Below, piece after piece: positions 51,601-63,768 of a stretch of DNA of 64,000 nucleotides; the stretch's first letter is position 1; the number at the start of each line of letters is the position of its first letter. Below the pieces are notes generated by a model. That model had not been told where the DNA came from, made no database searches, and was given only the letters and a program-made list of their open reading frames with translations. The translations under genes and the position numbers were made by a program. Source of the DNA: Psychroserpens sp. SPM9 (GTDB lineage Bacteria; Bacteroidota; Bacteroidia; Flavobacteriales; Flavobacteriaceae); NCBI RefSeq assembly GCF_025153525.1, contig NZ_JANZNR010000003.1, forward strand, positions 124,001 through 188,000. The letters run 5' to 3'.

Positions 51601-54417
51601 ATGAAGCGTGTACTTAAATTACAGTGTTATTCGATTTACCTAACCTTACTGGTGTTGCTTACCTCAAGTCGACTAGTTGCGCAATACTCCCCTTATTTTG
51701 AAAACTATTCTTTATCGGAATACAACGCTGGAAACCAAAACTGGGATGTTTCTCGCGCAGATAATGGTAAAGTATATGTAGCAAATAATAAAGGGTTATT
51801 AGAATATGACGGACTCAAATGGAATTTTTATGAGTTGCCAAATAAAACAACGCTTCGTTCTGTTATGGCCATAGATAATAGGGTTTACACAGGATCCTAT
51901 GAAGAGTTTGGTTTCTGGAAAAGCGATGATAAAGGCGATTTAATTTATGAATCTTTAAGTGATAAAATAAAAGATAGTATTTCTAAAAATGAAGAAATCT
52001 GGCAAATCGTACCTTATAAAAATCTAATCGTTTTTCGTTCTTTCTTGAATATTTATATCTACGATAAAGATAAGGATACTATAAAAAAGAAAAAACCGCA
52101 ATCGGTAGTTATTTCGTGTAGTGTTGCTGATGGTAAATTTTATATTTCGACGCTTAAAGGGGGAACTTATATTTTAGAGAATGAGGAGTTAATTCCTGTT
52201 ATTAATGAAGCTGTTCTTATTGATGCTAAAATCATTTCAATTACCCCATATGATGGCAAGTTGCTAATCACAACCTCTCTACGTGGCTGTTTTGTTTATG
52301 ACCAGACAGGTTTGAAACCTGTTAACTTTGAAATTAATGACATTATAAAACAACATCAGCTTAATAGTTTTTCAATGCTTGAAGACGGAAGAATGGTCTT
52401 TGGTACCATCAAAGATGGTGTTTATTTAACAAATAGGGAAGGTGACGTTATTTTTCATGTCAACAAAGAAAACGGATTGGTAAATAACACCGTTCTAAGT
52501 CAGTATTTAGATGTTGATAATACGTTGTGGATAGGTTTAGATAACGGATTGGCATCTGTAGATTTGAGTAGCCATAATTATTTCTTTAATGATGTTTCGG
52601 GAAAATTGGGAGCGGTTTATGATGTCATCAATTTTGAGGATACTATTTATATTGGAAGTAATACCGGACTCTTTTATTTGGATGATAAAAATAAACTTCA
52701 ATTTATTAAAGGAACTCAAGGTCAGGTATGGGATTTAAAAGAAGTGAATGGCGAGCTGTTTTGTGGGCATAATGATGGAACATTTTTAGTCAAAAACAAA
52801 AATGTTGAATTAATATCGGTTAATACCGGTGGTTATGTAATTAAAAAAGCACCTGAAAAAAATAATGTATTCATTCAGGGTACATATACCGGATTAGTAC
52901 GGTTTAGAAAAAATGGACCCAATTGGTCTGTAAAACATTTAGGAGAAACGACCATGCCTATTAGGTTTCTGGTCTTTGAAGATCAAACTACTGCTTGGGC
53001 TGCACACGCTTACAAAGGGTTATATAAAATAAAATTTGATCATAAGTTTGACACCATTGTTTCTATCAAAAATTATGAAGACAAAGGGATTTGGTCAAAC
53101 TATAACATTAGGGTTTTAAAAATTAAAAATGATATTTGCTTTAAAACCAATAGTGGGTGGCAAAAGTATGAACCGTTACTCGATAGTATTGTGCCTTTTA
53201 AGCTTTTGAATGAAAGTTTAGGAAAAGATGCTTATGTGGTTTCTGAACCAGATGTCAATAAACTCGTGCTTAAAAATGATAACGACATCATTACATTTAA
53301 ATCTTTTGTAAATAATGACCATACATTTTCGTTGTCAAATGATGTGTTTGATAATAGACTCATTGTTGGATTTGAAAATGTATCAAAAATTAGTGATTCG
53401 ACCTACGCTCTCAATTTAAACGATGGCTTTATGCTTATTGATAGTAGAGTGCACAAGGAAAAAACTGTTTTCAAGCCTTCAATAGACAGAATTGAGATTA
53501 GTAATAATCCTTTGAATTTTAGTTCTAATGCAGATATAATTAATTTAAAATTCGGAGAAGAAATAGATATACATATGTCATCTCCTAAATCTGTAAATCA
53601 TTTTTTTGAGTATGCTTTGCTAAATTTAGACGCGAAAAAATGGTATAAGCTAGAAAACCATAAATTAACCTTATCAAATCTTAAAGATGGTGAATATAGT
53701 ATAGGTCTAAGAACGGTTAATAGCTTCGGAAAAGTGTCTCCTACAACAAAATTAGATATAAATATTTTACCTCCTTGGTATAAAAATAAGATTGGCTATG
53801 CATTGTATACATTTATAGCTTGTATTGTGTTTTTTATCATGTATGCTTTACATAAACGAAAAATAGATAAAGAACAGAAATTGTTGCAGAATGCTTTTGA
53901 AAGAGAGCAGGAAGAATTGATAAGAGAAAAAACAATTGAAAATGAAAAGAATATCATCGAGCTTAGAAACGAATCTCTTAAAAATGAAATTAAATTAAAA
54001 AGTAAGCAATTAGCCAATACAGCAATGGCACTCGTGAAGAAAAATGAAACATTGCTAGAGATTAAAAATGAACTTACTCAAAACAAAAATAATTTCGACA
54101 ATTTCTATTCGTATAAGAAACTATTAAAGAAGGTTGATAACTCGATTGCTCATAAAGATGAATGGGAAATATTTGAATATAATTTTAATCAGGTTCATGA
54201 TGAGTTCTTTAAAAGTCTAATTCAAAAATATCCAGAGCTTACACCAAAAGATTTAAAAATTTGTGCCTACATCAAAATGAATTTATCTACTAAAGAAATT
54301 GCACCACTAATGAATATTTCTCCAAGAGGCGTTGAAACGCACAGATACAGGTTAAAAAAGAAATTAAAATTAGAAAATGACATTTCTTTGACCACTTATT
54401 TGCTAAACTTTAAATAA
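51601..54417 (+). CDS. PUL regulator: propeller/Y_Y_Y sensor with transmembrane helix and LuxR-type HTH
   Basis: A 938-residue protein. A signal peptide (residues 1-27) is followed by a long periplasmic region of Reg_prop-like propeller repeats (NGKVYVANNKGLLEYDG, DNTLWIGLDNGLASVD, NFEDTIYIGSNTGLFYLD), a Y_Y_Y domain near 650-720, a transmembrane helix near 731-752, a coiled coil and a C-terminal LuxR-like HTH (TPKDLKICAYIKMNLSTKEI, APLMNISPRGVETHRYRL) near 880-925. There is no histidine kinase or receiver domain, so it is not a hybrid two-component system but a one-piece membrane regulator. It lies 231 bp before susC, whose upstream region carries a tandem repeat that may be its binding site. 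Confidence 0.85.
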   Translation: MKRVLKLQCYSIYLTLLVLLTSSRLVAQYSPYFENYSLSEYNAGNQNWDVSRADNGKVYVANNKGLLEYDGLKWNFYELPNKTTLRSVMAIDNRVYTGSYEEFGFWKSDDKGDLIYESLSDKIKDSISKNEEIWQIVPYKNLIVFRSFLNIYIYDKDKDTIKKKKPQSVVISCSVADGKFYISTLKGGTYILENEELIPVINEAVLIDAKIISITPYDGKLLITTSLRGCFVYDQTGLKPVNFEINDIIKQHQLNSFSMLEDGRMVFGTIKDGVYLTNREGDVIFHVNKENGLVNNTVLSQYLDVDNTLWIGLDNGLASVDLSSHNYFFNDVSGKLGAVYDVINFEDTIYIGSNTGLFYLDDKNKLQFIKGTQGQVWDLKEVNGELFCGHNDGTFLVKNKNVELISVNTGGYVIKKAPEKNNVFIQGTYTGLVRFRKNGPNWSVKHLGETTMPIRFLVFEDQTTAWAAHAYKGLYKIKFDHKFDTIVSIKNYEDKGIWSNYNIRVLKIKNDICFKTNSGWQKYEPLLDSIVPFKLLNESLGKDAYVVSEPDVNKLVLKNDNDIITFKSFVNNDHTFSLSNDVFDNRLIVGFENVSKISDSTYALNLNDGFMLIDSRVHKEKTVFKPSIDRIEISNNPLNFSSNADIINLKFGEEIDIHMSSPKSVNHFFEYALLNLDAKKWYKLENHKLTLSNLKDGEYSIGLRTVNSFGKVSPTTKLDINILPPWYKNKIGYALYTFIACIVFFIMYALHKRKIDKEQKLLQNAFEREQEELIREKTIENEKNIIELRNESLKNEIKLKSKQLANTAMALVKKNETLLEIKNELTQNKNNFDNFYSYKKLLKKVDNSIAHKDEWEIFEYNFNQVHDEFFKSLIQKYPELTPKDLKICAYIKMNLSTKEIAPLMNISPRGVETHRYRLKKKLKLENDISLTTYLLNFK

Positions 54418-54449
54418 AACACACTTTAAATTACGTTATTCTTAATGTT

Positions 54450-54563
54450 TAACTACGTCATAACTACGTCATTTGTGCTTTTGATTAGTGTTTTTATTGC
54501 ATTTTTTGTAGTTTTAAGCTACGTCAACCCGCTATTTTTTACAACGTTTTCGTAAATGACGTA
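54450..54563 (+). promoter_or_regulatory. Repeated ACGTCA boxes upstream of susC
   Basis: TAACTACGTCA occurs twice in perfect tandem (54450-54460 and 54461-54471). A third CTACGTCA is at 54519-54526, with its ACGTCA core 55 bp after that of the second, and TGACGTA (the reverse complement of TACGTCA) is at 54557-54563. Four boxes in 114 bp directly between the regulator and susC are the best candidate for the PUL operator. The spacing of 11 and 55 bp keeps the first three near one face of the helix. Confidence 0.6.
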
Positions 54564-54648
54564 TTTAAAATGTAAATAGATTTTTATATATAAAACAAAT
54601 GCATTTTATATTGTAACCAACTAAACAATTCAAAATATACAATGTAAT

Positions 54649-57600
54649 ATGAAAGCAAAAATTAATCTATTAATCTTTTTCCTTTTTTCAGTATTTGCTT
54701 CAGCTCAAGAATTAACTGTTGGAGGTGTTGTAACTAGTGCTGATGACGGAATTCCACTACCTGGAGTCAATATTATTGTTAAAGGAACAACCAATGGAAC
54801 TTCAACAGATTTTGACGGCAAGTACTCTATTAAGGTAAATGTAGGTGATGTTCTAGAGTTTATTTACGTAGGACTTAAAACACAATCTATTAAAATAACA
54901 AACCAAACAACACTTAATATTGCTATGGAAACAGACGTTGAGTCACTTTCTGAAGTAGTTGTAATTGGTTATGGTAGTCAGAAAAAGGCAGATCTAACAG
55001 GTGCAATATCAACAGTAAAATCTGAAGATATTGAAAAAACGCCTAATAGTAATATCATGCAAGCCTTACAAGGTAAAGTTGCAGGTTTACAAGTGACCAG
55101 TGTAGGTTCTCCTGGAGATTCTCCTAATGTGAGAGTTCGTGGTGTAGGTTCATACGCTGCTGGTAATAACCCGCTTTATGTTGTTGATGGAATGTTTTAT
55201 GACAATATCGACTTTTTAGATAACAGTCAAATCGAAACAATATCAGTTTTAAAAGATGTCTCTTCGATAGCCATTTTTGGACAAAAAGGAACTAATGGTG
55301 TAATCATCATCGAAACCAAAGGTGGTAAGTTTGAACAAAAACCTGTGATTACCTATAGCGGTTATTCGGGTTACCAAAATGCTCAAAATGTTGTTAAAAT
55401 GGCAAATGCAGAGCAGTTTGTCACCATGGCTTATGAGTCAGGATCTGAAGCAGATATCGAATTTGTTCAAAATGCAATTCAGCGCTATGGTAGAAGTAGA
55501 GTCAACCCGAACATTCCTAATGTTAATACAGACTGGTATAAAGAAATTTTAAGAGTTGCTCCAATTTCAAGTCACAGTATAGGAGTCGCTGGAGGTAGTA
55601 ATTCTACAACTTATGGGATTAATACTAGTTATTTTTCTCAAGATGGAATCTTAGATATGAAAAACGAATATGAGCGTTTTAATATCCAATCTAATTTAGA
55701 AGTAAAACTATCAGACAGATTCAAAATGGGAACAAATGCTGTATTCAGTAATGCTACAAAGTACAATGCTGAAAACAGCGCATGGTTTCAAGCATATTTT
55801 GCTGTTCCAATCCTTCCAGTCTATGATCCGCTAAATACTGAGGCAACGCCTATTCCGTTTTCAGATGCGACACAGTTAGGTTATCGTGGTTCTCAAAACC
55901 CATTTCCTGTAATGACATTCAACGAGAATGAGCTTAAAATCAGAAAAATCCTGGCGAGTTTATATTTAGAATATGCAATTATTCCCGAAAAATTAAAATT
56001 TAAAACGTCGTATAGCCACGATTTTTCTACAATTTCAGAACGTAATGTGAGATTGCCTTACTTTATTTCTGAAAACTCTCAAAGAGAAACATCATCTATT
56101 AGACGAGCAAATTCAGAATATTCAAACCAAATTTGGGATAATACCTTAACTTATAAAGATAGCTATGGTAATCACAATGTAACTGTTTTAGCAGGTTCTT
56201 CTTATAGAGATGAGCAAGTAAACCTCTTTTCAGCAACCGGAAACGATATCCAAGGAATTGGATTAGAAAGTTCATGGTATTTAAATTTTGCAGATCCAAC
56301 CTCGTTTTCAAATCAAGTGAATGAAATTGGAGACCGTTTTTATGCTTTAGCCTTTTTTGGTAGAGTCGAATATAATTTTATGGATAAATATCTTGTTAAT
56401 GCGACTTTAAGAACTGAAGGTGATGCTAAATTTCCAAAAGAAATTTGGGTAACAACACCTACAATTGGTCTTGGATGGGTCATTTCTAATGAAACGTTTA
56501 TGGAAGATAATGGCTTGTTTAATTTCTTAAAACTTCGTGGAAGTTGGGGACAATTAGCAAATGGAGCTATTGGTGGTAGTTCGGGAACACGTACTGTATC
56601 TCAAATTACGACTGCTATCAACGATGTGGCCACTAACGGAATTATTAGTTCTAGTAATTTCACCGATTTAGAGCGTGAGATTTTAGAAGAAACAAATGTG
56701 GGTATTAGTGCGAGATTATTTGATAACCGACTCTCATTAGAAGCCGATTATTATATTAGAGATACTAAAAAATTAGTCATTCCTGTAGACCAGCCTATCG
56801 TGAGTAATACCATTTTAGAAAATGTGGGTGAAATGAGAAATAAAGGAATCGAAATTGCCGCAAACTGGAATCAAAGACTCAATGATAACTGGAGTTTTTC
56901 TGTAGGTGGAAATATCGCTACTTTAAAAAATGAAGTTACTAAAATTAATAGCTCAGCAGGTTATTTTGATACGGGTAGTGCCGAGTTTCGTCAAAGATCT
57001 CGTGTAGGTGACCCAATCGAAGCCTTTTTTGGATGGGAAGTTGTTGGTGTTTATCAAAACACTGAAGAAGTAATGAATGACCCAATTGCCGTTGCTAATG
57101 GTTTAGAGCCTGGTGATTTTAAATTTAGAGATCAAGATAACGATGGCGATATAGATGCAGACGATAGAGTGGTACTTGGATCGTATTTACCAACATTTAC
57201 TTATGGTGGTAATTTCCAGGTGTCTTATAGAAACTTTGATTTGTCTGTTGCAATTTCTGGGCAAACCGGAAATGAAATATTGAATAGAAAAAGAGGTGAG
57301 GTTTTATTTACGAATGATACCAATGTAGATGCCGATTTTGCAATCAATAGATGGCATGGTGAAGGGACTTCTAATACTTACCCGTCTTCGGCTGGTAGAC
57401 GAAAAGGATGGAACCAAAGAATGAGTACCTTCTTTGTTGAAGATGGTGCTTATTTCAGAATTCAGAATATCCAGTTAGCCTACACAATTCCGGCAAGTTC
57501 TTTATTAGGGAAGAATATGCCTGAAACAAAATTTACCTTCACTGCTGAACGTCCGTTTACGTCATTCAATTATAATGGATTTAATCCAGAAGTTGCTAAT

Positions 57601-57666
57601 GGTATTGATAGACAAACGTACCCAATACCTGCAGTTTACACTTTTGGTGTAAATATTAAAATTTAA
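54649..57666 (+). CDS. SusC/RagA family TonB-dependent outer-membrane transporter
   Basis: A 1005-residue SusC-like transporter. The signal peptide ends ASAQ. Residues 25-110 are the carboxypeptidase-regulatory-like domain (GIPLPGVNIIVKGTTNGTST), and the plug follows with the RagA/SusC wording VVIGYGSQKKADLTGAISTV, then LQGKVAGLQV and VRGVGSYAAGNNPLYVVDG. The C-terminal half is the 22-strand barrel. It takes up oligosaccharides through the outer membrane with TonB energy. It is the first gene of the PUL transcript, with SusD 13 bp after the stop. Confidence 0.95.
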   Translation: MKAKINLLIFFLFSVFASAQELTVGGVVTSADDGIPLPGVNIIVKGTTNGTSTDFDGKYSIKVNVGDVLEFIYVGLKTQSIKITNQTTLNIAMETDVESLSEVVVIGYGSQKKADLTGAISTVKSEDIEKTPNSNIMQALQGKVAGLQVTSVGSPGDSPNVRVRGVGSYAAGNNPLYVVDGMFYDNIDFLDNSQIETISVLKDVSSIAIFGQKGTNGVIIIETKGGKFEQKPVITYSGYSGYQNAQNVVKMANAEQFVTMAYESGSEADIEFVQNAIQRYGRSRVNPNIPNVNTDWYKEILRVAPISSHSIGVAGGSNSTTYGINTSYFSQDGILDMKNEYERFNIQSNLEVKLSDRFKMGTNAVFSNATKYNAENSAWFQAYFAVPILPVYDPLNTEATPIPFSDATQLGYRGSQNPFPVMTFNENELKIRKILASLYLEYAIIPEKLKFKTSYSHDFSTISERNVRLPYFISENSQRETSSIRRANSEYSNQIWDNTLTYKDSYGNHNVTVLAGSSYRDEQVNLFSATGNDIQGIGLESSWYLNFADPTSFSNQVNEIGDRFYALAFFGRVEYNFMDKYLVNATLRTEGDAKFPKEIWVTTPTIGLGWVISNETFMEDNGLFNFLKLRGSWGQLANGAIGGSSGTRTVSQITTAINDVATNGIISSSNFTDLEREILEETNVGISARLFDNRLSLEADYYIRDTKKLVIPVDQPIVSNTILENVGEMRNKGIEIAANWNQRLNDNWSFSVGGNIATLKNEVTKINSSAGYFDTGSAEFRQRSRVGDPIEAFFGWEVVGVYQNTEEVMNDPIAVANGLEPGDFKFRDQDNDGDIDADDRVVLGSYLPTFTYGGNFQVSYRNFDLSVAISGQTGNEILNRKRGEVLFTNDTNVDADFAINRWHGEGTSNTYPSSAGRRKGWNQRMSTFFVEDGAYFRIQNIQLAYTIPASSLLGKNMPETKFTFTAERPFTSFNYNGFNPEVANGIDRQTYPIPAVYTFGVNIKI

Positions 57667-57679
57667 AAAAAAAAGCAAT

Positions 57680-59218
57680 ATGAAAAATTTAAAACATGTA
57701 TCAAAACAGTTAGCTTTTCTGCTAACAATCTGTACAATTTTATCTAGCTGTACAGATAAATTAGAGGAAAATGATGGGCAACTATCTGCCGATGATTTAG
57801 ACTTTACAATTACCGCAAATATGGTGTTGCCTTTAATTGGTGCCTATTCTGAAGTTTATTCCAGAGGATGGGAAGATCCATTGTTAATTGGAGTTAGAGG
57901 TGATGATGTTAATGCTGGAGGTGTTGGTGATGCTCAAGGTGGTTTTACAAATGCAGACCTTTATAGTTACGATAACGGATATTGGATGTTTAACCAGGTT
58001 TGGAGTAACTTCTATGGCGATATTGTAGATATTGTCAATTCTCGCGAAACTATCGAAAGATATAAAGAATTTGCTACAGGAGATGACATTGCTCTTGCAG
58101 ATCAATATATGGCAGAAACTAAAGTGTTGAGTGGTTATCAGCATTTACAAATGTCGCGTATGTGGGGCGATATCTTTATTATAACAACGTCTAACGTTTC
58201 TGAAGATATAGATAATGGTGTAGCAACAAAAGCTGAAGTTATGCAATATGTTTCAGATCTTATGGACGAAGCAATCCCGTTTTTACCTGATATGAGACCT
58301 AATGAAAGAACCGATGTGACTGGTGGTGTCACCAAATACACCGCATTAGCTGTAAAAGCAATGGCTAATCTTGAATTAGAAGACTATCAAGCTGTTGCAG
58401 ATGTTACAGCCGAAATCATCAACTCTAATAAATTTATGCTTTACCCAGATTATTACGAGTTGTTTAAAAAACCTGGACAACTAAGTGATGAAAACTTATT
58501 TGAATTACAATTTTCAGATTATAACTCCGACTCAGGTGATGTCAATAACCATTTATATGCACCATTCGGACCTTCAAGTTGGACACCAGCCGTGTCAACA
58601 GCTTCTGGTGGATGGGGTTTTTATGAGCCTAGTCTTAAGTATATCAAATTCATGATCGATAGAAATGATGAAACACGTTTGGTAACCAGCGTATGCTTTA
58701 CACCTCGTGGCATGGATGAGATTATGTTAGATCCTGGTTATACGACCTTGCCTGGTTATATTTCTAACGAAACTCCAGATGGTGATATATTTAATGATTA
58801 TGCTAGAGCCATGTTTGCTAGCGGAAAGCATTATTTGCCTTCAAATCAATTGACTCCTGGAAGAAATAGTTACGGTTCTAGTAAAAACTTTATTGTTATT
58901 AGATATTCTGAAATATTATTAATGTATGCTGAAGCTTTAACACATGGAGCAAGTGGAAGCGCTATGACAGCAGATCAAGCTGTTAATTTAGTAAGAGATA
59001 GAGTTGGTATGCCACTATTATCTGGAGTAACAACAGATGATGTAATGGACGAAAAATTTGCTGAGTTAGGTATGGAATGGGGTATCCGTTACTTTGATAT
59101 GATTCGATTAAATCGTTATGATGAATTAAGCTACGATGGTCGCACGTTTACTGCTGCCGACGAGCTTTTACCATACCCTCAAGATCAATTAGATCTTTTA
59201 CCATTAGAAAATAATTAA
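57680..59218 (+). CDS. SusD/RagB family surface glycan-binding lipoprotein
   Basis: A 512-residue lipoprotein (signal ends ILSSCTDKLEEND, with an acidic surface-export-like start). The TPR-containing SusD fold is visible from the N-terminal helices and the typical C-terminal part: VIRYSEILLMYAEALTHG, DQAVNLVRDRVGMPLL, EMGWGIRYFDMIRLNR-like and LLPYPQDQLDL. SusD forms a lid on SusC and binds oligosaccharides at the cell surface. Spacing to SusC is 13 bp and to the LamG protein 13 bp. Confidence 0.95.
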   Translation: MKNLKHVSKQLAFLLTICTILSSCTDKLEENDGQLSADDLDFTITANMVLPLIGAYSEVYSRGWEDPLLIGVRGDDVNAGGVGDAQGGFTNADLYSYDNGYWMFNQVWSNFYGDIVDIVNSRETIERYKEFATGDDIALADQYMAETKVLSGYQHLQMSRMWGDIFIITTSNVSEDIDNGVATKAEVMQYVSDLMDEAIPFLPDMRPNERTDVTGGVTKYTALAVKAMANLELEDYQAVADVTAEIINSNKFMLYPDYYELFKKPGQLSDENLFELQFSDYNSDSGDVNNHLYAPFGPSSWTPAVSTASGGWGFYEPSLKYIKFMIDRNDETRLVTSVCFTPRGMDEIMLDPGYTTLPGYISNETPDGDIFNDYARAMFASGKHYLPSNQLTPGRNSYGSSKNFIVIRYSEILLMYAEALTHGASGSAMTADQAVNLVRDRVGMPLLSGVTTDDVMDEKFAELGMEWGIRYFDMIRLNRYDELSYDGRTFTAADELLPYPQDQLDLLPLENN

Positions 59219-59231
59219 AATAAGCACGAAA

Positions 59232-60941
59232 ATGAAAACTATAAATAAATACATTCTATCATTGGTCGCATTAATAATGGTGACGTCTTGTTATGATGGA
59301 ATAGATCCAATTACAGAAGTTGATCCAGGGGAAGATGCTGCTAATCCAACAGTTAGTATTATCTACCCAACAGAAGGAACTGAAATCACAGGTCTCGAAC
59401 TTGTAGTGCCTATCACATTTAGATTTGAAGTTGAAGACGATATTGAAATTGCTTCCATTGTTTTGAATCTAGACGGAAATCAACTGACAACATATAACGA
59501 TTTTTTAGATTATCGTGTCGTGATTGAAGAGTATACCTACGATAGTTTATCAAGTGGTGAGCATGTATTAACAATTACCGCAACCGATATCGCAGGCAAC
59601 TCAACAAGTGAAGTAGTGAATTTCTCAAAAGCACCACCTTACGAAGCATTGTTTCCTGGCGAAATATTCTATATGCCTTTTGATGGGACTTATACCGAAT
59701 TGTTAAGCATCACTGACGCTACCGAAATAGGAACTCCAGAATTTGCAAATGATGCTTTTCTAGGTTCTAACGCTCTTAAAGCTTCTGAAGATTCTTACCT
59801 CTCGTTTCCTTTAGATCAAACACTGGGAGGAAACTTTACAGGTGCATTCTGGTACAAGGTTAATTCGTCTCCAGACCGTTCTGGTATCATAACCGTAGGA
59901 GATAATGCTGACGATCGTTTACAAGGCTTTAGATTGTTTAGAGAAGGTAGCGCTACTGAACAACGTATTAAATTAAACGTTGGTACTGGTGGTGGCGAAA
60001 GTTGGAATGATGGTGGTGTTATAGATGTTGACGCAAATGAATGGATACATGTGGCTTTTACCATCTCACCAACAGAAACTGTGATTTATTTTAATGGAGT
60101 GCCTGTGAATACGGCTTCTCCTGCTGGACCTATCGATTGGACTGGTTGTAATGATATACATATCGGTGCTGGCGGACCAACATTTGATTATTGGGGACAT
60201 AACTCTGACGATAGTGCTATGGACGAATTGCGATTATTTAATATCACAATGTCCCAAGCCGAAATTCAAAATATGATTAATGTAACAAACCCATATGAAC
60301 CAATGTATGACGGTGAAACATTTTATATGCCTTTTGATGGTTCTAATACCGAATTGATAAGTTTAAATATGCCAGCTGTTGTTGGTGCACCAACTTTTGC
60401 TGGTGAAAGCTATCAAGGGTCTGATGCCTACTTAGGTACTACAGATTCTTACTTAACTTATCCAATTGATGGTTTGTTTGGTGCAGATCAGTTTAGCGCT
60501 ACATTTTGGTATAAGGTAAATGCGACACCTGATAGATCAGGAATCTTGATTGTTGGAGATGATGCCGATGATCGTTTTCAAGGGTTTAGACTATTTAGAG
60601 AAGGTAATGCTACCGAGCAACGTATCAAAGTCAATGTGGGAATTGGTGATGGTGAAAGTTGGAACGATGGAGGTGTGATAGATGTCGCTGCTGGTGAATG
60701 GATCCATATTGCTTTAACTGTTTCGCCTACTGAAAGCAAAATTTATTTTAATGGCGTAGAACAATTGTCATCAACATATACATCAAGTATTGATTGGACA
60801 GGCTGTAGCGAAATAAATATAGGTGCTGGCGGACCAACATTTGATTATTGGGGACACTTATCGGATGCTAGCCCAATGGATGAACTTCGTCTGTTTAATA
60901 TTGCATTAACTGAAGCGCAAATTCAAGATATGCTTGATTAA
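59232..60941 (+). CDS. Surface lipoprotein with two LamG-like (concanavalin A-like) domains
   Basis: A 569-residue lipoprotein (signal ends MVTSCYDGID). Residues 35-135 resemble an Ig-like domain (NPTVSIIYPTEGTEITG ... HVLTITATDIAGNST). Two LamG/concanavalin A-like domains follow, about residues 140-350 and 360-569, each starting GExFYMPFDG and ending MDELRLFNI. The two halves are an internal duplication with a 35-nt stretch still identical. It has no catalytic motif and sits in the SusE/F position of the PUL, so it is probably a surface glycan-binding protein. Confidence 0.85.
   Translation: MKTINKYILSLVALIMVTSCYDGIDPITEVDPGEDAANPTVSIIYPTEGTEITGLELVVPITFRFEVEDDIEIASIVLNLDGNQLTTYNDFLDYRVVIEEYTYDSLSSGEHVLTITATDIAGNSTSEVVNFSKAPPYEALFPGEIFYMPFDGTYTELLSITDATEIGTPEFANDAFLGSNALKASEDSYLSFPLDQTLGGNFTGAFWYKVNSSPDRSGIITVGDNADDRLQGFRLFREGSATEQRIKLNVGTGGGESWNDGGVIDVDANEWIHVAFTISPTETVIYFNGVPVNTASPAGPIDWTGCNDIHIGAGGPTFDYWGHNSDDSAMDELRLFNITMSQAEIQNMINVTNPYEPMYDGETFYMPFDGSNTELISLNMPAVVGAPTFAGESYQGSDAYLGTTDSYLTYPIDGLFGADQFSATFWYKVNATPDRSGILIVGDDADDRFQGFRLFREGNATEQRIKVNVGIGDGESWNDGGVIDVAAGEWIHIALTVSPTESKIYFNGVEQLSSTYTSSIDWTGCSEINIGAGGPTFDYWGHLSDASPMDELRLFNIALTEAQIQDMLD
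60165..60856 (+). repeat. Internal duplication inside the LamG gene, 35 nt still identical
   Basis: The 35 nt at 60165-60199 and 60822-60856, encoding GAGGPTFDYWG, are identical, 657 bp apart. The flanking LamG domains are diverged, so this stretch may be under strong constraint or have been homogenised by gene conversion. Confidence 0.6.
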
Positions 60942-60976
60942 CAGTTTTTATTTTTTTTTATTAGAATTAGTCTTTT

Positions 60977-61011
60977 CTTTAGCTGTGTTTATTTTTTAAA
61001 TGCAGCTAAAG
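60977..61011 (+). terminator. Intra-PUL hairpin between the LamG and first GH144 genes
   Basis: CTTTAGCTG and CAGCTAAAG form a perfect 9-bp stem with a 17-nt loop, followed by TTTTAAAAACATTT, 36 bp after the LamG stop and 16 bp before the GH144 start. It may act as a partial terminator or as an mRNA processing and stability element that sets lower enzyme than binding-protein levels. Confidence 0.5.
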
Positions 61012-61027
61012 TTTTAAAAACATTTAG

Positions 61028-62395
61028 ATGAACACGTCACGTAGTCATTATATTGTATTAATCCTTGTGGTTGTTGCTTTTTTAAGTTGTAAAACTGAAA
61101 AAAAAGAGTCTATAGCTTTTCATAAAACAACTCATACCTATGCTGGTTTAGCCGATACCCAATTACTGGATACCATTCAAAAGCAAACCTTTAATTATTT
61201 CTGGGAGGCTGCTGAACCAAATTCTGGATTAGCCAGAGAACGCCTACACATGGATGATGTCTACCCTACATCTCCAAAAAATACAGTCACGACTGGTGGA
61301 AGTGGGTTTGGACTAATGGCTATTTTAGTAGGAATAGAAAGAGAATGGATCACAAGAGAAGCAGCCTTAGATCGCTATTTGCAAATTGTAGATTTCCTTG
61401 AAAAAGCAGACCGATTTCATGGTGCTTGGCCACATTGGATAGATGGTGAAACAGGAAAAGTTTACCCTTTCAGTAAAAAAGATAATGGTGGCGATTTGGT
61501 TGAAACAGCTTTTTTAATACAAGGTTTATTAACGGTTTCAGAATATTTCAAAAACGGAAATGAAAAAGAACAAGTTTTAGTTGCTAAAATTGATAAACTA
61601 TGGAAAGAAGTAGAGTGGGACTGGTATACTAAAAATGGTGAGGATGTTTTATACTGGCATTGGTCTCCAGAATATCAGTGGGAAATGAATTTCCCTGTAG
61701 GTGGATACAATGAATGTCTTATTATGTATGTACTGGCAGCATCGTCTCCTACACATTCTATTAGTAAATCGGTATACGAGAAAGGTTGGGCTCGAGACGG
61801 CAAAATTGTATCGAAAAATACAATGTATGACATGCCTTTAGTATTAGACTATTATGAGCATGATGAATCACTGATCGGACCTTTGTTTTGGGCTCATTAT
61901 TCCTATTTGGGATTAAATCCTAAAGGGCTGTCAGATCAATATGCAGACTATTGGAAATTAACTCAAAATCAAGCTAAAATTCATTATCAATATGCTTTAG
62001 ATAATCCCGAAAACTTTAAAGGCTATGGCGATAGTCTTTGGGGTTTAACATCGAGCTATTCTATAAAGGGTTACTCTGGTCATAGACCTGGAGCTGATTT
62101 AGGAGTCGTATCTCCAACTGCCGCATTATCGTCATTTCCGTATACACCTAAAGAAAGCATGCAAATGCTAAAATATTTGTACACAAAACAAGATACTTTG
62201 ATTGGAAAATATGGACCATACGATGCTTTCAGCCTACATGACAATTGGTATAAACCAAGATATTTGGCCATAGATCAAGGGCCAATTCCTGTAATGATTG
62301 AAAATTACCGTACAGGTTTGCTTTGGAATTTATTTATGAGACATAAAGATGTCAAAAATGGCCTTGATAAACTAGGCTTTACAATTCAAGATTAA
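61028..62395 (+). CDS. GH144-type beta-1,2-glucanase-like lipoprotein, copy 1
   Basis: A 455-residue lipoprotein (signal ends VAFLSCKTEK). The sequence fits the 'glucoamylase family' domain PF10091, the family now placed in GH144 with characterised endo-beta-1,2-glucanases. Conserved blocks: TGGSGFGLMAILVGIER, ADRFHGAWPHWIDG, DNGGDLVETAFLIQG, WHWSP, GYNECLIMY, GPLFWAHYSYLGLNP, LSDQYADYW, and AIDQGP with IENYRTGLLWNLF. The (alpha/alpha)6-barrel and acidic residues in DNGGDLVE are likely at the catalytic cleft. By analogy it would cut beta-1,2-glucan outside the cell or in the periplasm. It is a tandem paralogue of the next gene. Confidence 0.85.
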   Translation: MNTSRSHYIVLILVVVAFLSCKTEKKESIAFHKTTHTYAGLADTQLLDTIQKQTFNYFWEAAEPNSGLARERLHMDDVYPTSPKNTVTTGGSGFGLMAILVGIEREWITREAALDRYLQIVDFLEKADRFHGAWPHWIDGETGKVYPFSKKDNGGDLVETAFLIQGLLTVSEYFKNGNEKEQVLVAKIDKLWKEVEWDWYTKNGEDVLYWHWSPEYQWEMNFPVGGYNECLIMYVLAASSPTHSISKSVYEKGWARDGKIVSKNTMYDMPLVLDYYEHDESLIGPLFWAHYSYLGLNPKGLSDQYADYWKLTQNQAKIHYQYALDNPENFKGYGDSLWGLTSSYSIKGYSGHRPGADLGVVSPTAALSSFPYTPKESMQMLKYLYTKQDTLIGKYGPYDAFSLHDNWYKPRYLAIDQGPIPVMIENYRTGLLWNLFMRHKDVKNGLDKLGFTIQD

Positions 62396-62400
62396 AAAAT

Positions 62401-63768
62401 ATGATGAGATATATAAATTTATTATTTATCAGCCTTTTGTGTTTAACGTCCTGTGGTTCCGATGATGGTCCTGGCTACCAAGAACCTTATGATCCGGATG
62501 ATGATGACCCGGTTGTTGTTGACCCGCTAACAGATGATGAGATTATGGACTTAACGCAGCGGGAAACTTTTAAATACTTCTGGGATTTTGCTAATACCGA
62601 TTCAGGTGCAGCAAAAGAACGTTACCATCCTAATAATACGGCTTTAAATGCAAATGTTGTAACAACAGGCGGTAGCGGTTTTGGGCTTATGGCTATTCTA
62701 GTAGGTATTGAGAGAGGTTACGTAACGCGTGTAGAAGCTGTTGAACGTTTGACAACCATTCTTAACTTTTTTGAAAATGCCGACCGCTTTCATGGTGCAT
62801 GGCCACATTGGTTAGATGGTGGAACAGGTCATGTAATTCCGTTTAGCTCTCAAGATAATGGAGGTGATTTAGTGGAAACGGCTTTTTTAGCACAAGGCTT
62901 AATTTGTGTAAAAGAATATTTTAAAAATGGATCAGTAGAAGAACAAGCATTAGCCAATCAAGCTGATGTTTTATGGAAAGGCGTTGAATGGGATTGGTAT
63001 ACTCAAAATCAGAATAAATTATTCTGGCACTGGAGTCCTAGTGATGAATTTGCAATCAACCTAGAATTAAAAGGCTATAACGAAACATTAATCGCTTTTA
63101 TTTTGGGCGCAGCTTCTCCTGATTATTCGATTTCTGCAGATGTGTATCATCAAGGTTGGGCTAGTAATGGTAATATCATATCTTCTGAAAATCAATACAA
63201 TATTCCTATGGTGTTAGATCATGCTGGATCTGGTACCGGACCTTTATTTTGGGCGCATTATTCCTATTTAGGTTTAGACCCAAGAAATTTATCAGATCAA
63301 TATGCTGATTACTGGACACTGAATAAAAATCATACAGAAATTAACTATGAGTACTGTGTTGATAATCCGCTAAATCATTTCAAATATGGACCAGATTGCT
63401 GGGGGTTGACTGCGAGTTATTCTAGAAATAGCGATGGTTCAATTGGTTATATGGCTCATAAACCTGGAGAGGATATTGGAGTGATTTCTCCAACAGCAGC
63501 CATAAGTTCTATTCCTTATACTCCCGAGAAATCACTTGAAGCTATGCATTTTTTCTATAGTAAAAATGATATTCTATTGGGTCCTGCTGGGTTCTACGAT
63601 GCGTTTAGTCCTAAATTTGATTATTGGGTAGCTGAAGCTTATCTAGCCATCGATCAAGGTCCGCAAATTATAATGATTGAGAATCACAGAACAGGTTTGT
63701 TATGGAATTTGTTCATGCAAAATGAGGACGTTCAAAATGGTCTGGATGCCTTAGACTTTAATTATTAA
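62401..63768 (+). CDS. GH144-type beta-1,2-glucanase-like lipoprotein, copy 2
   Basis: A 455-residue paralogue of the preceding protein, 5 bp after its stop. The lipobox is LTSCGSDDG, followed by an acid- and proline-rich linker of about 20 residues (EPYDPDDDDPVVVDP), which points to display on the cell surface. All conserved blocks of copy 1 are kept (TGGSGFGLMAILVGIER, DRFHGAWPHWLDG, DNGGDLVETAFLAQG, WHWSP, GPLFWAHYSYLGLDP, LSDQYADYW, AIDQGP). The different N-termini suggest one enzyme outside and one in the periplasm, or different chain-length preference; this is inference. Confidence 0.85.
   Translation: MMRYINLLFISLLCLTSCGSDDGPGYQEPYDPDDDDPVVVDPLTDDEIMDLTQRETFKYFWDFANTDSGAAKERYHPNNTALNANVVTTGGSGFGLMAILVGIERGYVTRVEAVERLTTILNFFENADRFHGAWPHWLDGGTGHVIPFSSQDNGGDLVETAFLAQGLICVKEYFKNGSVEEQALANQADVLWKGVEWDWYTQNQNKLFWHWSPSDEFAINLELKGYNETLIAFILGAASPDYSISADVYHQGWASNGNIISSENQYNIPMVLDHAGSGTGPLFWAHYSYLGLDPRNLSDQYADYWTLNKNHTEINYEYCVDNPLNHFKYGPDCWGLTASYSRNSDGSIGYMAHKPGEDIGVISPTAAISSIPYTPEKSLEAMHFFYSKNDILLGPAGFYDAFSPKFDYWVAEAYLAIDQGPQIIMIENHRTGLLWNLFMQNEDVQNGLDALDFNY

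Follow-up and report, generated by a model that had tools for sequence, protein, structure and literature searches.

The closest described counterparts of the locus studied here are the SusR-like regulators of Bacteroides and the HTCS. SusR-like regulators, which the present protein resembles in its predicted architecture and role, are membrane-anchored one-component proteins that govern susC/D operons. The sites predicted for them are direct repeats with a spacing of 67 or 77 bp, and the motifs of HTCS are direct repeats approximately 21 bp apart (PMC3878776). The same study finds no significant similarity between the DNA-binding domain of SusR and known families, and sensor domains of the HTCS-type class are reported to bind oligosaccharides (PMC3878776). 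A further point of comparison is provided by the LuxR/NarL-type (GerE) regulators EsrB, VraR and FixJ, which have the same HTH as the regulator considered here and a recognition helix that aligns with its own. MalT, another regulator of this type, activates glucan genes through asymmetric boxes arrayed as direct repeats. In contrast to EsrB, VraR, FixJ and MalT, the HTH is here fused to a putative membrane-spanning oligosaccharide sensor, and not to a receiver or nucleotide-binding module. The initial annotation of this DNA had called such sites rarely described for kinase-less propeller/Y_Y_Y regulators, which is a fair statement as long as it is not read as "never", since direct-repeat sites have already been predicted for SusR-like regulators (PMC3878776). 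In the literature searched, we found no description of the 11-bp tandem, the opposed proximal pair or the residue-base code presented below, and none of operators of one-component PUL regulators in marine Flavobacteriaceae.

The window, by which we mean the whole stretch of 64,000 nucleotides that was analysed, encodes on its plus strand (51601-54417) a regulator of 938 residues with a propeller sensor and a LuxR/GerE HTH. A signal peptide is followed by a periplasmic beta-propeller (residues ~27-640), a Y_Y_Y-like sandwich (~647-722), a transmembrane helix (from ~730), a coiled coil and the HTH (880-933), and the AlphaFold model (mean pLDDT 82) displays propeller, sandwich, membrane helix, coiled coil and C-terminal HTH. 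The predicted topology is that of a membrane protein with a periplasmic sensor and a cytoplasmic DNA-binding domain. Pfam assigns the HTH to GerE (PF00196; 2.2e-9, 37.2 bits against a curated cut-off of 23.5) and beside it reports only a sub-threshold Sigma70_r4_2, so that the protein has a recognisable GerE HTH, whereas no similarity to known families was reported for the DNA-binding domain of SusR (BT3705). With the HTCS BT4663 and BT3049 the regulator has in common the control of PULs, predicted in its case, and the sensor fold, a periplasmic propeller plus Y_Y_Y (Foldseek E 3.5e-34; matched structures 4a2l, 3v9f and 3ott), which places the sensor among the COG3292-type propellers by fold. 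Unlike these HTCS, it is devoid of histidine kinase, receiver and AraC-type HTH in the Pfam search, and the AlphaFold model contains only helices between the membrane helix and the HTH, with no kinase or receiver fold.

The 231-bp gap between the regulator gene and susC is occupied by an array of short boxes, most of which had been seen in the initial annotation and are confirmed by the positions of the letters. TAACTACGTCA is perfectly doubled at 54450-54471, giving box 1 (TACGTCA, 54454-54460, plus strand) and, as a direct repeat at 11 bp, box 2 (TACGTCA, 54465-54471, plus strand). The third copy, said to have its core 55 bp further on, is CTACGTCA at 54519-54526; its core, box 3 (TACGTCA, 54520-54526, plus strand), lies 66 bp from box 1 and 55 bp from box 2. 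The inverted, promoter-proximal TACGTCA is likewise present on the minus strand at 54557-54563. Two elements had been overlooked: a degenerate box 0 (TACGTTA, 54432-54438, plus strand), 22 bp upstream of box 1, and a second inverted half-site (TACATTT, 54568-54574, minus strand) at 11 bp from the inverted box. The minus-strand sequence of 54575-54557, TTACATTTTAAATACGTCA, has the two half-sites 11 bp apart, and the inverted box is one half of a second 11-bp tandem. Four copies of TACGTCA fall inside 110 bp, whereas shuffling the window 300 times never gave more than two, and the array is the sole case in the window of a perfect 11-bp tandem with at least four G/C, a pattern found in none of 100 shuffles. 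No boxes were found upstream of the regulator's own gene in 13 orthologues, so we rejected autoregulation through such boxes in that region.

The initial annotation had proposed to look for the boxes upstream of orthologous susC genes that keep the same regulator. A scan of reference genomes yielded 32 relatives of the regulator, and nearly all of those with enough flanking sequence retain the order regulator-susC-susD; together with whole-genome searches and fetched stretches, the downstream DNA of 245 regulators was read. The tandem TACGTCA-n4-TACGTCA, exact or with few mismatches, follows the regulator gene in 43/43 deduplicated GxET regulators when scanned with a model. An autocorrelation that assumes no motif gives essentially the same picture for this group, with a period of 11 bp in 42/43, 55 bp in 38/43 and 66 bp in 37/43 (3-5 in shuffles). 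Within the array, conservation is strongest in the distal tandem. Of 48 orthologue sequences, 45 have box 3 at 66 bp from box 1, and the inverted box lies 101-105 bp from box 1 in 40 and 113-116 bp in the other 8; nothing lies in between, and the longer distance thus corresponds to one added helical turn. These rigid spacings and the one-turn insertion support the earlier suggestion that the 11-bp repeat puts the boxes on one face of the helix. The inverted pair reads TGrCGTA-n6/7-TGTA in the orthologues and TGATGTA-n7-TGTA in the I/V/L clade, and box 0 is weakly conserved in the ET clade (12/43, at -21/-22). The 66 bp between boxes 1 and 3 recalls the 67 or 77 bp of SusR-like sites, whereas the dominant unit here is the 11-bp tandem, and the layout differs from theirs in combining a distal tandem of an asymmetric half-site with a promoter-proximal pair in opposite orientation.

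The susC gene (54649-57666, plus strand; NCBIfam OMP_RagA_SusC, 2.7e-231) is the first of the operon predicted to be controlled, and it is preceded by a probable -7 promoter element of the TAnnTTG class, TATATTGT, at 54607-54614 (plus strand). Measured from start to start, this element follows the inverted box at a distance of 50 bp in the present sequence as well as in 27 orthologue sequences. Because in F. psychrophilum positions -12 to -5 are occupied by the sigma-A box TAnnTTTG or the variant TAnnTTGY (PMC9723704), transcription of susC would by analogy start near 54619, with the inverted pair at about -62 to -45. The promoter-like element of the ET clade is often TAnnTTGY, which in F. psychrophilum constitutes a distinct motif, SM5, apart from the sigma-A consensus TAnnTTTG (PMC9723704). 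Downstream of susC, 57680-63768 (plus strand) encodes, according to Pfam, SusD, a LamG/Ig surface-protein candidate and two PF10091 glycosidases. Past the end of the window, Pfam identifies in the same direction an esterase, GH3, GH97, GH3, GH2, a second esterase, a sulfatase and GH43, and the run continues with a protein of the endonuclease/exonuclease/phosphatase family, an MFS sugar transporter and a second regulator of the same family. The short gaps and common direction suggest that the genes downstream of susC form one operon. The two adjacent PF10091 glycosidases (61028-63768), members of a family that we take to include beta-1,2-glucanases, share their run (L259) with GH3, GH97, GH2, GH43, the sulfatase and the esterases.

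We consider it very probable that the boxes constitute a multi-site operator of the adjacent membrane-anchored one-component regulator, as the initial annotation had proposed for the regulator at 51601. Both outcomes that the annotation had named as refuting were looked for, and neither was observed. The conserved tandem argues for this assignment, as do, at the level of sequence, the rigid phasing, the fixed distance to a promoter-like element and, described below, the near-uniqueness of the tandem, its co-variation with a residue of the recognition helix and the persistence of the layout in diverged relatives. In the mechanism that we propose, the LuxR-type HTH would recognise the asymmetric half-site CTACGTCA, with two HTH units sitting head to tail on the 11-bp direct repeats, on the same face of the DNA. 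The distal pair would then precede the susC transcription start by approximately 160 bp, the single box 3 would lie six helical turns from the first box, and the second pair, in opposite orientation, would abut the core promoter (about -62 to -45). Upon binding of an oligosaccharide by the periplasmic propeller, the protein would probably rearrange and occupy the proximal pair, whereby RNA polymerase could be recruited or contacted; the helically phased distal pair may contribute extra affinity or co-operative binding, or form a loop.

While activation seems the natural reading of this geometry, the regulator could also bind the array as a repressor or derepressor, or the proximal inverted pair could be the only functional part, with the distal boxes as accessories. 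We regard this as unlikely. Part of the I/V/L group does keep the tandem without a clear third box or inverted pair, which such a reading would accommodate; however, the proximal pair is held at 50-51 bp from the promoter element in two clades, which is the position of an activator, and it is the distal tandem that is best conserved. The best-known precedent, SusR, is an activator (PMC3878776), and by this analogy the present regulator would be expected to activate as well.

A second concern raised with the initial annotation was that the motif might be common across the genome with no link to this regulator. Counts of the single box turned out to be uninformative, CTACGTCA being rarer than its backward control (30 matches genome-wide versus 67). 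The exact TACGTCA tandem, on the other hand, is single-copy in the host genome, and among its 30 occurrences in 399 Flavobacteriaceae genomes 24 lie directly behind a T-type regulator of this family. The remaining six (L324, L336, L337, L338, L343 and L344) were inspected and have no such regulator beside them; since the backward-control tandem occurs 8 times in the same 399 genomes, six is approximately the number expected by chance. One of them (L338, genome G254) adjoins a glycoside-hydrolase-like gene, which may be chance or a remote member of the regulon.

The same layout recurs, in different letters, behind more distant members of the family. The second regulator mentioned above (L034, contig C33:204239-210022) is 35% identical to the first, lies some 30 kb from it and ~17.7 kb past the end of the window, and has its own susC-like gene; its intergenic region contains CTATACATTACCACTACA and an opposed GATGTATGTTTTTTGTAG. 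It belongs to an S clade (helix SVE[VI]K) that carries CTATACATTACCACAACA in the matching place, again as an 11-bp tandem. Across 67 S-clade relatives the tandem is kept with these other letters, an extra box is found at -21 in 39/67, and the opposed pair is present in 49/67, with 78-83 bp in most cases between it and the start codon of the following gene. Within this clade, a nested SVETKRY subclade (L147, L151, L157, L168 and L223) shows CACGACATTACCACGACA or a close form, with G in both halves, in 4/5 members; L223 retains the A form despite its T residue. No 11-bp array was detected downstream of the several deeper relatives examined with helices GVELARY, GVEERRY, GVEDTRY or GVEISRY, which counts against the operator assignment. 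These array-less relatives (L234, L236, L237, L240, L242 and L245-L250, with GVELARY/GVDLARY; L170-L176 and L179, mostly with GVEERRY) mostly have no co-directional gene downstream.

The changes in box letters can be compared with those in the regulators themselves. T913 sits in the recognition helix of the AlphaFold model (908-921), aligned in the HTH alignment with the T of VKTH in VraR and of VETH in EsrB, and we take its equivalent in NarL to be Val189, which contacts bases. Where T913 is replaced by I, V or L, TACGTCA gives way to TACATCA, and T at position 4 of the box occurs in a second clade. Counting G in either half-site as G, and with 13 rows of ambiguous register removed by hand, T913 pairs with G at box position 4, and I/V/L/M with A/T, in 161 of 164 scored regulators, the exceptions being L223 (T with A) and L108 and L097 (V/I with one G half). 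Of 50 HTH columns taken one at a time, residue 913 predicts best (98.2%, the next reaching 94.1%), with two other columns fitting equally well or better within the S clade. The number of independent switches on the tree is only 2-3, three residue changes being sufficient to explain the pattern, and for this reason the sign test on independent pairs is not significant (p 0.5). The co-variation, which links the protein to the boxes, should therefore be regarded as suggestive and not as statistically proven. G is also found in GxET regulators that fall outside the main clade and whose placement on the tree is unsure (L022, L023 and L231), and searches with HTH fragments for further T switches returned mainly loci already seen. 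Downstream of L278 (GVETSRY), outside the tree scoring, we found ATTGACGTAGTAATGAAGG, a TACGTCA half-site on the other strand.

These observations bear on the question of whether the boxes might instead be bound by another transcription factor, unlinked or global, and neighbour the regulator only through their shared place upstream of susC. The regulator gene almost always stands next to susC, so that position alone does not separate this possibility from control by the regulator itself. We nevertheless consider it improbable, because the genome holds just one copy of the doubled box, most of its occurrences in the family are tied to this regulator type, and differences in the recognition helix of the regulator are accompanied by differences in the letters of the boxes. 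That the conserved blocks act as RNA, as a leader structure or antisense RNA, is most improbable and was rejected: although cis-encoded small RNAs are reported as Bacteroides PUL repressors in a title cited in PMC9723704, the array has no Rfam match at E<=1, its helically phased direct repeats and one-turn insertions are a signature of DNA, and its place upstream of the promoter-like element puts it outside the susC message.

Returning to the operator of the adjacent regulator, we think it rather probable that the kinase-less propeller-LuxR family of Bacteroidota shares a single operator grammar together with a readable code by which residue 913 determines base 4 in the half-site. The grammar would consist of a head-to-tail tandem of 11 bp behind the regulator gene, an opposed tandem at a fixed position relative to the promoter, and helically phased gaps. 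Should the code be true, operators and regulons would become predictable from protein sequence. Very little has been described of the operators that one-component PUL regulators use, and a conserved array combined with a residue-base code would provide a direct route to pairing regulators with operons and to predicting regulons, while the two opposed, helically phased tandem pairs suggest how a membrane-tethered protein could grip its promoter.
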